Below are positions 8,817 through 14,227 of a stretch of 56,700 nucleotides of DNA, in pieces. This stretch comes from Chthoniobacter flavus (GTDB taxonomy: Bacteria; Verrucomicrobiota; Verrucomicrobiia; Chthoniobacterales; JACTMZ01), in NCBI GenBank assembly GCA_945871065.1, contig CAMBUL010000007.1, forward strand, positions 1-56,700, given 5' to 3'. The notes beneath the pieces are model-generated. The model made no database searches. It was not told where the DNA came from and worked only from the letters and a program-made list of their open reading frames with translations. The first letter of the stretch is position 1; the number at the start of each line of letters is the position of its first letter. A program made the position numbers and the translations under genes.

Positions 8817-8835
8817 CCCGCGCGCCACGCGCGGG
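8817..8835 (+). terminator. GC-rich hairpin right after yqgE
   Basis: A perfect 8-bp stem (CCCGCGCG / CGCGCGGG) with a CCA loop begins on the base after the yqgE stop. No good U-tract follows (AGTGTTCAGTTTTC), so it is a weak intrinsic terminator or an RNA-stabilising hairpin. Confidence 0.5.
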
Positions 8836-8843
8836 AGTGTTCA

Positions 8844-8925
8844 GTTTTCAGTGATTCAGTTTTCAGTACCCCCCCCGCGCCGACCTCAAACCAAGCCACT
8901 CACCCAAAACTGAATCACTGAAAAC
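8844..8925. repeat. 20-bp perfect inverted repeat built from CAGTTTTC/GAAAACTG units
   Basis: Bases 8844-8863 are exactly complementary to 8906-8925, with 42 bp between them. Each arm contains two copies of the TTTTCAGT/ACTGAAAA unit. The right arm overlaps the apparent 5' end of the alkyltransferase-like gene, whose only plausible start, CTG 8918, is inside it. Related units occur at 9348-9372 and 54913-54938. Confidence 0.8.
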
Positions 8926-9244
8926 CGCAAACTCCCCCTCCCCGTTCGCCACCAAAGTCTACGCGGCGCTCCAAAAAGTCCCACCCGGCCGCGTTATCAC
9001 CTATGCCGCCCTCGGTCGCCGGATCGGCTGTCACTCACCCCGCGCCATCGGCCAAGCCCTCCGCGCCAACCCCTTCGCCCCGCAAGTCCCCTGCCACCGC
9101 GTCATCGCGTCCGATTTGACCATCGGCGGCTTCCAAGGCGAAAAATCCGGCCCCACCCTCGCCAAAAAGCTCCGCTTGCTCACCGCCGAGGGCATCCACT
9201 TTCAAAACAACCACCTCACCGACCCCGCCCGCGCCCTCCGCTAA
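8918..9244 (+). CDS. O6-alkylguanine-DNA alkyltransferase-domain protein (MGMT/Ogt C-terminal domain), no AUG start
   Basis: The frame encodes a 108-aa DNA_binding_1/MGMT domain. It shows VPPGRVITYAALG, a recognition-helix-like PRAIGQALRANP, and the active-site PCHRV motif with acceptor Cys about 59. Downstream are a GGFQG segment and a Glu near LTAEGI, as expected for alkyl transfer. PCHRV rather than PWHRV separates it from non-enzymatic alkyltransferase-like proteins. It lacks the N-terminal domain of Ogt/Ada-C, as in short MGMT-family proteins. From the preceding in-frame stop (8852-8854) to the PCHRV motif there is no ATG, GTG or TTG; CTG 8918 is the best candidate, and it lies in a repeat arm. 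The gene may use a CTG start or be 5'-damaged. Confidence 0.78.
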   Translation: MKTANSPSPFATKVYAALQKVPPGRVITYAALGRRIGCHSPRAIGQALRANPFAPQVPCHRVIASDLTIGGFQGEKSGPTLAKKLRLLTAEGIHFQNNHLTDPARALR

Positions 9245-9347: not shown

Positions 9348-9372
9348 ACTGAACACTGAAAACTGAACACTT
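9348..9372. repeat. ACTGAA(CACTGAAAACTGAA)CACT repeat copy before adenine deaminase
   Basis: ACTGAACACTGAAAACTGAACACTT lies immediately upstream of the ade ATG (9380). It shares the CTGAAAAC core with copies at 8906-8925 and 54913-54938. The CTG at 9356 is in frame with ade, eight codons before its ATG. Confidence 0.7.
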
Positions 9373-9379
9373 CCCTTCC

Positions 9380-11041
9380 ATGCACCTCCGCGGCCAAATC
9401 ATCGATATCCCCAACCAACGCATTTTCCCCGGAGTAATCGAAATAGCCGACGGCAAAATTGTCGCTCTCCGCGAGGACCAATCGGTCACTGATCCCGGCT
9501 ATCTCTGCCCGGGCTTCATCGATGCCCACGTGCACATCGAAAGTTCCATGCTCACCCCGCCGGAATTCGCCCGCATTGCCGTGACCCACGGCACAGTCGG
9601 CACGGTCTCCGACCCCCACGAAATTGCCAATGTCCTCGGCATAGAGGGCGTCCGCTACATGCAGAGGCTGGCCGCCCAAACCCCCTGCAAAATCCACTTC
9701 GGCATCCCCTCCTGCGTCCCCGCGACCAACTTCGAAACGGCCGGCGCCACCCTCGGACCCGACAGCATCGAGGAACTTTGCCGCGACGAATCACTGCTCT
9801 ACCTCTCGGAGATGATGAACTTCCCCGGGGTCATCCACCGCGATCCCGAGGTCATGAAAAAAATCGAGGTTGCCAAGCAATACGGTAAACGGATCGACGG
9901 ACACGCCCCCGGCCTCCGCGGCGAGGACCTCAAGAAATATGTCTCCGCCGGGATCGAGACGGACCACGAGTGTTTTCAGATCGCCGAGGCGCGGGAAAAG
10001 CTCGCCCTCGGGCAAAAAATCCTCATCCGCGAAGGCTCCGCGGCGAAAAATTTCGAGGAGCTCTGGCCCTTGCTCAATGAAGCGCCGGAGTCTTGCATGC
10101 TCTGCAGCGACGACAAACATCCCGACGACCTCATGGAGGGCCACATCAACCAACTTTGCGCCCGTGCTGTGGCCCACGGCGTCCCGCTCTTCAACGTCCT
10201 CCGCGCCGCGTGCGTGAATCCGGTCGAGCACTACGGACTCCGTTGCGGACTCCTCCGCCCTGGCGACCCTGCCGATCTCATCCGCCTCCATGATCTGGTC
10301 AGCTTCCAAGTGATGGAAACCTGGATCGACGGACAACTCGTGGCCCGCGGGGGCCAATCCCTCCTTCCGAGATCAAAGTCCCCCCGGGTCAACCACTTCC
10401 ACGCTACGGCAAAGGTTGCCTCCGACTTCGCCCTCCCCGCTCCGGCCGCGGTAATGGACCCGGCGTCCTCGACACCACTCCGGATCCGCGTGATCGAAGC
10501 CCTCGACGGACAAATTATCACCGGCGCCGGCGAGGCCGAAGCCCTCCTCCGTGCCGGGCAAATCGTGGCCAACCCCGGGCAAGACATCCTGAAAATTGCC
10601 GTGGTCAACCGCTACAAAGACGCTCCGCCCGCCGTGGCCTTGGTCCGCGGCGTCGGGCTCAAGTCGGGCGCCATCGCTTCCAGCGTGGCCCACGACTGCC
10701 ATAACATCGTCGCCATTGGCACTTCCGATGAGGACCTGGCCCGAGTGGTCAACCTTCTGATCCAAAACGAGGGGGGCATTGCCGTCGTCGGGGACGGCGG
10801 CTTCGAGGACGTGCTTCCTCTCCCCGTGGCCGGTCTGATGAGTGACGGCTACGCCGAGGATGCGGCGACCGCCTACGCTCGCCTGAGCCAAGCGGCCCAG
10901 GCCCTCGGCAGCCCTCTCCACGCCCCCTACATGACCCTCAGCTTCCTCGCTCTCCTCGTCATCCCGGCCCTGAAGCTCAGCGACTTAGGTCTCTTCGACG
11001 GCCATAAGTTCGCCTTCGTTCCGGTCTGGGTCAAAGCTTAG
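9380..11041 (+). CDS. ade: Adenine deaminase
   Basis: Converts adenine to hypoxanthine and ammonia in purine salvage. The 553-aa product has the AdeC architecture. An amidohydrolase barrel carries the metal motif DAHVHIESSM (about 51-60), TVSDPHEIANV and DGHAPGL, and there is an adenine deaminase-specific C-terminal domain with GVGLKSGAIASSVAHD (about 425-440). Length fits the family (about 550-600). It is monocistronic: upstream is the short alkyltransferase gene, and downstream a bidirectional terminator. The start is a normal ATG just after a CTGAAAAC repeat. Confidence 0.94.
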   Translation: MHLRGQIIDIPNQRIFPGVIEIADGKIVALREDQSVTDPGYLCPGFIDAHVHIESSMLTPPEFARIAVTHGTVGTVSDPHEIANVLGIEGVRYMQRLAAQTPCKIHFGIPSCVPATNFETAGATLGPDSIEELCRDESLLYLSEMMNFPGVIHRDPEVMKKIEVAKQYGKRIDGHAPGLRGEDLKKYVSAGIETDHECFQIAEAREKLALGQKILIREGSAAKNFEELWPLLNEAPESCMLCSDDKHPDDLMEGHINQLCARAVAHGVPLFNVLRAACVNPVEHYGLRCGLLRPGDPADLIRLHDLVSFQVMETWIDGQLVARGGQSLLPRSKSPRVNHFHATAKVASDFALPAPAAVMDPASSTPLRIRVIEALDGQIITGAGEAEALLRAGQIVANPGQDILKIAVVNRYKDAPPAVALVRGVGLKSGAIASSVAHDCHNIVAIGTSDEDLARVVNLLIQNEGGIAVVGDGGFEDVLPLPVAGLMSDGYAEDAATAYARLSQAAQALGSPLHAPYMTLSFLALLVIPALKLSDLGLFDGHKFAFVPVWVKA

Positions 11042-12985: not shown

Positions 12986-14062
12986 TCAAGGGGTCAAAAT
13001 GCTCATTGCGCCGCGGGGCAGGACGGAAGAACCCAACTCTCGCCGCAGCGCTCGGTCTGCCGCCGCGTCATCCCCAAATTTCAAGGCAGGGTCAGGCAAC
13101 AAAACGATCGTTTGAAGGCTCGGGGCCAGCGCGATCATGGCCTTGAGTTCCTCCGACGCGTTGGTTCCCCTGCGCACGGCCTCGCGCCAGCGGAGGGCAA
13201 CCGCGGACTGGGAGTCCGGAGCAGACACCTCGACGGCCTCCCCGGCCTCGGAAGCTTCGGCCGCGGCCAGTTGCATTTTAACCCGCAGCAAGGCGGAACT
13301 TTTCCAAGGAGACTGGCGCGTCAAGGCCGAGAGCAAATAAGCGTGCGCGGCGGAGCCTTCCCCAAGTTGACGGCTGAGTTCGCCGTGGAAAAAGTGGACG
13401 GATGCATCGGAGGGGCTGCTCTCCGCCGCCTCAAGCAAAAGTTGTTTGGCCTGCGGACCGGCCCGCTCCACGCCCAGTTCGCCACGTCGCAGCCACACCC
13501 CCAGTGCGGCCAGCAATTTGGCCGGGGCCTCGCTGCCCCCACGCTGCGAGGCGTTGGCGGAAGCGCGGGACAGGGCGTCGGTGTCCCTTTGTTGCAGGGC
13601 GATCTCGCCGGCCAGCAATTCGAGCCCGGGCAATTGCGGATCGGTCTGTTGAGCCATGGCCAGTTGTGCCATCGCGTCGTCCATCCGTTCCTCGTACCGC
13701 GCCCTCACGGCCTCATCGAGCGACCGCAAGGCGGAGGCCCGCTGCTCCTCGGTCGCCGGCAAAATGTCCGAAGCCGCAGCCAACCGCCTGAGCTGCAGCC
13801 GGTGCCAGAAGAAGCTTGCCACGAAGGACGAAAGAATAAGCAAAACAGCAACCGTGCAGAAAATAATCTCCTTCCTGCTTAATTGCCGGAAACTGAACAA
13901 AGTCACGCCCGTCGGGTTGGTCGCCATGTCGGACAGTTGGATTGTTCCAAGTTCTGTTTTGGCGCAGGAGCGCCGGGAAATGAACCATTTTTTGCGCTGC
14001 CCCAGGCTTGAACGCGACCGGTTGGGCGGCGGGTTGACCGGGTCGGGGATCGGAGTTTCCAT
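12986..14062 (-). CDS. Membrane-anchored protein with TPR-like helical domain
   Basis: A 358-aa protein with about 60 polar N-terminal residues, one transmembrane segment (IIFCTVAVLLILSSFVASFF, about 66-85), and a long Ala/Leu/Glu-rich helical region with TPR-like periodicity (about 105-310). ATG 14062 (METPIPDPVNP) is favoured; ATG 14098 would add 12 residues. It is followed on the same strand, after about 150 bp, by the TIGR02597-like gene. No enzymatic motif is visible. Function unknown. Confidence 0.65.
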   Translation of the reverse strand: METPIPDPVNPPPNRSRSSLGQRKKWFISRRSCAKTELGTIQLSDMATNPTGVTLFSFRQLSRKEIIFCTVAVLLILSSFVASFFWHRLQLRRLAAASDILPATEEQRASALRSLDEAVRARYEERMDDAMAQLAMAQQTDPQLPGLELLAGEIALQQRDTDALSRASANASQRGGSEAPAKLLAALGVWLRRGELGVERAGPQAKQLLLEAAESSPSDASVHFFHGELSRQLGEGSAAHAYLLSALTRQSPWKSSALLRVKMQLAAAEASEAGEAVEVSAPDSQSAVALRWREAVRRGTNASEELKAMIALAPSLQTIVLLPDPALKFGDDAAADRALRRELGSSVLPRGAMSILTP

Positions 14063-14227
14063 GGCTGCAAAAACGCCTAACGTGCGATCCTGCCTCATTT
14101 AGTCAAGCGCGGCCTCAAGCTCAGGCCCGCCGTGTTTTGGGCCCGCCAGACCATTCCGTCGGCCTGCGCCACCGCTTTTCTTCGTTCCCAAGAGCCGCGC
14201 TTTGCGCTTCGCTCGACGTTCTGGCTT

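Follow-up and report, generated by a model that had tools for sequence, protein, structure and literature searches.

A single-domain O6-alkylguanine-DNA alkyltransferase gene of Chthoniobacterales with a putative CTG start inside a dispersed repeat

Bacteria rarely begin translation at CTG, yet authentic cases exist, and initiation from all 64 codons is reportedly the subject of a study by Hecht et al. from 2017. One of the genes for which a CTG start has been confirmed, both by mutation and by N-terminal analysis, is rep of RepFIB, where this codon keeps expression low (PMC11983097). The gene described here resembles rep in its proposed bacterial CTG start and in the low expression that such a start would set, and the start of rep is often misplaced in database annotation. 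It differs in that rep has a good ribosome-binding site and encodes a plasmid replication protein, while the product here would be a DNA repair protein (PMC11983097). CTG has also been considered the probable or reported start of ano from Escherichia coli O157:H7 and of rpsL from Deinococcus deserti, which share this codon with our gene; however, the passages of that source on these two genes describe no link to a dispersed repeat (PMC5960689). According to a structural paper, initiation complexes formed on CUG are less stable (PMC11497404).

With regard to the product, the closest described proteins are the single-domain O6-alkylguanine-DNA alkyltransferases (AGTs) and ATLs of family PF01035, which likewise have the C-terminal alkyltransferase domain, lack an N-terminal one and hold the tyrosine, the arginine finger and the PCHRV motif (PMC10779285). 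ATLs carry a Trp instead of the Cys that is found in our protein, and the single-domain AGT parts described in the review passages on them are joined to further domains, unlike the free-standing protein considered here (PMC10779285).

The gene is located in a window of 56,700 nucleotides (the whole stretch of DNA analysed), which is contig 7 of a draft genome (2.53 Mb in 120 contigs) from Chthoniobacterales (Verrucomicrobiota). A protein search recovered congeners, of which those with names are Chthoniobacterales or metagenome bins of uncultured Verrucomicrobia. The AGT gene sits between a yqgE/algH-like gene (PF02622; 8259-8816, + strand), which is its 5' neighbour in all eight congeneric loci, and the adenine deaminase gene ade (9380-11041, + strand), which has an ordinary ATG start and is present in five of these eight loci, at the extent fetched. 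A short GC-rich hairpin (8817-8835, + strand) lies immediately 3' of the yqgE stop codon, and a promoter scan at the AGT locus found no promoter. The span of 8844-9244 given in the original prediction is right, and so are all other details of the observed sequence that were open to checking. Within it, the AGT frame is open from 8855 to 9244 (+ strand), preceded by a TGA (8852-8854) and closed by the stop codon at 9242-9244; read from the CTG at 8918, the single-domain ORF (8918-9244, + strand) encodes 108 amino acids.

The alkyltransferase domain had been proposed to be intact, and this is borne out by the match to PF01035 (6-O-methylguanine DNA methyltransferase DNA-binding domain; E 8e-25, 86.9 bits against a cut-off of 27), to which a match to TIGR00589 can be added (69.9 bits against a cut-off of 46.4). 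The PCHRV motif is encoded at 9089-9103, with the catalytic Cys codon at 9092-9094, and this motif and residues Y29, R42 and E91 are invariant among 14 aligned proteins. The roles of these three residues, Y29 being the conserved tyrosine, R42 the arginine finger and E91 the downstream Glu, are presumably those known from the reviewed proteins (PMC10779285). The AlphaFold model of the 108-residue product reaches a pLDDT of 90.1 and a pTM of 0.81. Confidence is low for residues 1-10 (mean pLDDT 65), and the model therefore places little constraint on the exact start. In a fold search against the PDB, all 41 matches with E up to 0.001 were AGT, ATL or AGT-derived entries, the best of them being archaeal and human AGTs and Atl1 from Schizosaccharomyces pombe. 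An ATL identity was considered and rejected, because the window copy has the catalytic Cys, as do all 14 aligned sequences. The protein is predicted to repair O6-alkylguanine. It appears to be the sole alkyltransferase in each of the four genomes whose copy offers only CTG as a start (G000, G002, G005 and G010), as each of them, with a completeness of 88-100%, yields one AGT match.

A scan for near-cognate codons (NTG, ATN and ACG/AAG/AGG) 5' of the invariant Phe of the domain recovered CTG 8918 alone. The open frame 5' of the conserved domain (8855-8944, + strand) is devoid of in-frame ATG, GTG, TTG, ATN, ACG, AAG and AGG, and an in-frame TTG near 9115 falls 3' of the catalytic Cys. The original claim that CTG 8918 is the only start candidate, with no ATG, GTG or TTG available, therefore stands, and the pattern recurs in three more species. 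Eight of the 11 genomes sampled from the genus carry this AGT gene at an identity of at least 68%; in two others (G007 and G009) the only AGT is of a distant full-length type, and G001 shows no AGT match. Four of the eight copies (L001, which is that of the window, L002, L003 and L004) are devoid of ATG, GTG and TTG in the open frame 5' of the domain, and all four carry a CTG precisely nine codons ahead of the invariant Phe; L001 and L003 offer no other near-cognate codon. The other four congeners have a usual start: TTG in L005, an ATG overlapping the end of yqgE in L006, GTG and TTG in L007, and two ATGs in L008. The codon occupied by this CTG is ATG in the more distant relatives L011 and L048 and could serve as a TTG start in L007; in L012 and L013, likewise more distant, the ATG lies at the eighth codon before the Phe. 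Thus, the window copy combines the absence of a usual start with a CTG at the place where relatives start. Outside the genus, a usual start was present in the open frame of all 17 fetched relatives (L144-L160, with E below 1e-30; five weaker loci, L161-L165, were left out). The rule used to find the Phe misplaces it in L141, which is the same gene as L004, and in L160, which entered the count solely for having a usual start in its open frame. According to these data, the locus is probably a working single-domain AGT gene, the translation of which would begin at CUG 8918.

A general use of CTG starts in this genome was rejected. A comparison with G010 covered 185 conserved ORFs, of which 40 had at least 15 aligned codons 5' of the first usual start (contigs C3-C8 gave none), and it revealed no convincing coding 5' of the first ATG, GTG or TTG in any of the 185. 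The ORF at 13371-13652 (+ strand) does exhibit a clear synonymous excess 5' of its start, yet it lies opposite a minus-strand ORF (12986-14098) and was regarded as no more than a shadow frame. In that species pair, the AGT gene does not pass the pN/pS filter of 0.4, which keeps it out of the 185. The four CTG-only copies have in common that the CTG lies in an A/C-rich stretch lacking a Shine-Dalgarno sequence. This lack is no objection to initiation there, because such signals are scarce in this genome (23 of 181 genes carry one, and a control interval gives 14 of 181). Some other Verrucomicrobia have been described as similarly poor in them (PMC10783764).

The CTG belongs to a repeat built of 7-base words (CTGAAAA/CTGAACA). 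As originally described, a loop of 42 nt separates two perfect 20-bp inverted-repeat arms, and the CTG falls within the right one (left arm 8844-8863, right arm 8906-8925, both + strand). These arms are nested in a 31-nt inverted repeat with 90% identity (8833-8863/8906-8936), and each inverted-repeat arm corresponds to one copy of the repeat. The word CTGAAAACTGAA, allowing up to one mismatch, has five matches in the window versus 0.17 expected, and the repeat core ACTGAAAACTGAA occurs 13 times without mismatch in this genome, whereas the reversed word is absent. In the window, copies of the ACTGAAAACTGAA type are intergenic, at 8840-8867 (- strand) and 9355-9367 (+ strand); a further copy of the repeat (9354-9379, + strand), which aligns with 8916-8941, ends just before the ATG of ade, and one copy is placed 12 nt 5' of that codon. 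The start region of the AGT gene is therefore a spot where a dispersed repeat meets a gene with no ATG following it. Conservation of the CTG proves little, because the codon belongs to a repeat that would be present in any case. The loop region of the inverted repeat also holds a run of eight C (8869-8876, + strand), possibly a variable-length tract or an assembly error; the spacer is 128 nt long here and 129 nt in L003.

The inverted repeat had been proposed to form a gene-specific hairpin that hides or presents the start codon. The RNA of 8817-8960 is indeed predicted to fold strongly (-44.6 kcal/mol, z -6.7, with none of 200 shuffles as good), as does that of L003 (z -6.5), the CTG being paired in the stem in both, and the CTG region deprived of the left arm is nearly unstructured (-1.4 kcal/mol). 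However, L002 and L004 miss the left arm and have their CTG in weakly folded RNA (z 0.77 and z 0.25, respectively), so that the fold is missing from two of the four CTG-only species. L001 and L003 are moreover not independent cases, since their spacers and the 5' halves of their genes are nearly identical. The repeat is found at many other genome sites, and no Rfam family was matched at the gathering score, the only hit being to the leucine leader, below threshold and on the opposite strand (E 0.13). The hairpin was therefore discarded as a conserved switch, and such a role seems very improbable. A different explanation is that ribosomes arriving from yqgE produce the AGT, either by readthrough of its stop codon, which would generate a YqgE-AGT fusion, or by reinitiation at or near the CTG. 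It draws on the spacer that separates the stop codon of yqgE from the AGT Phe (8817-8944 in the window), the length of which is a multiple of three in six of the eight congeners (81, 129, 69, 144, 60 and 132 nt, thus spanning 60-144 nt), with the yqgE frame open through the entire spacer in five of these six. The binomial chance of at least six out of eight would be about 0.02 if the loci were independent, which they are not. The overlap between the AGT ATG and yqgE in L006 also fits, since it indicates that coupling of the two genes may be ancestral. Nevertheless, readthrough is weakened by three copies: that of the window is off by one (128 nt, at the C run) with a stop intervening, L005 has two in-frame stops, and L006 uses a different frame. 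Nor are the spacer peptides conserved, and the frame pattern is no argument for plain reinitiation, because this process needs no shared frame. The multiple-of-three spacing may be due to chance, or else to some role for ribosomes from yqgE, and production of the AGT by this route is considered unlikely.

The other main rival to CUG initiation is that of a young pseudogene, which would have lost its start and not yet acquired stops or frameshifts, the CTG being mere repeat sequence. In its favour, whole-gene dN/dS within L001-L003, the youngest clade of three close species, is 0.65-0.80 (NG86), versus 0.07-0.09 for yqgE, and omega inside this clade is 0.21, versus 0.04 in the rest of the tree (2dlnL 16.0). 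In the first 59 codons, each pair of the clade shows one or two nonsynonymous and one or two synonymous changes, too few to show constraint, and omega = 1 is not rejected for these codons alone (2dlnL 2.7, in a test with little power). In addition, the gene may be dispensable, because G001, which is 88% complete, has no AGT match. Against decay, frameshifts, which the original prediction had named as evidence of a pseudogene, were sought in the eight congeneric copies and none was found, nor was any stop, and all named catalytic residues are intact in the four CTG-only copies. For the whole gene, omega = 1 is rejected inside L001-L003 (2dlnL 14.7). Most changes within this clade fall in the last 40 codons, a part of the gene with rapid evolution in the majority of pairs, including those between genes with usual starts (L005-L008; pN/pS 0.49-0.77 in five of six pairs and 0.33 in the sixth). 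L001 and L003 differ at two positions in the first 177 bases of the domain and at 29 in the last 120, a distribution that suggests recombination between species inside the gene around base 177. This apparent exchange of the 5' part makes the clade hard to read. The high dN/dS was not accepted as proof of decay, since its excess falls in the fast last 40 codons and in an apparently recombined stretch of L003. On deeper branches, selection is clearly purifying: pN/pS in the first 59 codons is 0.09-0.28 between L001-L003 and L005-L008 and 0.20-0.21 against L004, and a branch model rejects omega = 1 for the stem of L001-L003 (2dlnL 15.4) and for the branch of L004 (2dlnL 27.0), which is equally startless, with the limit that the usual start may have been lost only part of the way along both branches. 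We read this as a gene that is still alive, with real doubt remaining; decay is rather improbable.

Under the preferred reading, initiation at CUG 8918, the AGT would begin with fMet-Lys-Thr-Ala-Asn-Ser-Pro-Ser-Pro-Phe. As CUG pairs weakly with the initiator tRNA, AGT output is expected to be low, a level that would be tolerable for, and would suit, a repair protein required in few copies. The CTG would not be set by a gene-specific device, as it sits in the arm of a dispersed repeat that would have turned over between yqgE and the AGT gene. In L001 and L003, the second arm would add a hairpin that should lower initiation further and would not be a conserved part of the system; the burial of the CTG in this hairpin in two of the four CTG-only species counts against CUG initiation. 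It is proposed more tentatively that the repeat supplies the start codon of what seems to be this lineage's sole alkyltransferase gene, and that the weak CUG may have been kept in several species over an AUG, only one step away, because low dosage is favoured. If CUG initiation is true, this gene would be a chromosomal, multi-species addition to the very short list of bacterial CTG-started genes, with a product that acts in DNA repair, and an example of a dispersed repeat reshaping the start of a gene. Programs that call only ATG, GTG and TTG starts should miss or truncate a gene of this kind, so that species could be wrongly scored as devoid of O6-alkylguanine repair.

The repeat itself extends well beyond this locus. 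It was found in 10 of the 11 genomes of the genus and in 47 of 147 genomes of a sample of the order, where the reversed control gave a few matches too. Literature searches found no description of it: that for its sequence met only an unrelated paper about the development of the inner ear, and those for Verrucomicrobia repeats met nothing relevant. The contexts retrieved (L031-L075) comprise 43 distinct ones, those near locus ends being left out; some are the AGT gene itself, and L044 and L045 are duplicate loci of G005 and G010. In 24 of the 43, the start of a frame of 80 codons or more, an ATG, comes within 60 nt 3' of the repeat; 12 are directed at the 3' end of an opposite-strand frame, two precede another start, and five do neither. 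Among the genes preceded by copies are ade-like ones and some that we take, from their sequences, to be rpsD-like and leuD-like. The repeat is oriented toward the start codon when it lies 5' of genes, and is inverted when it lies 3' of them.
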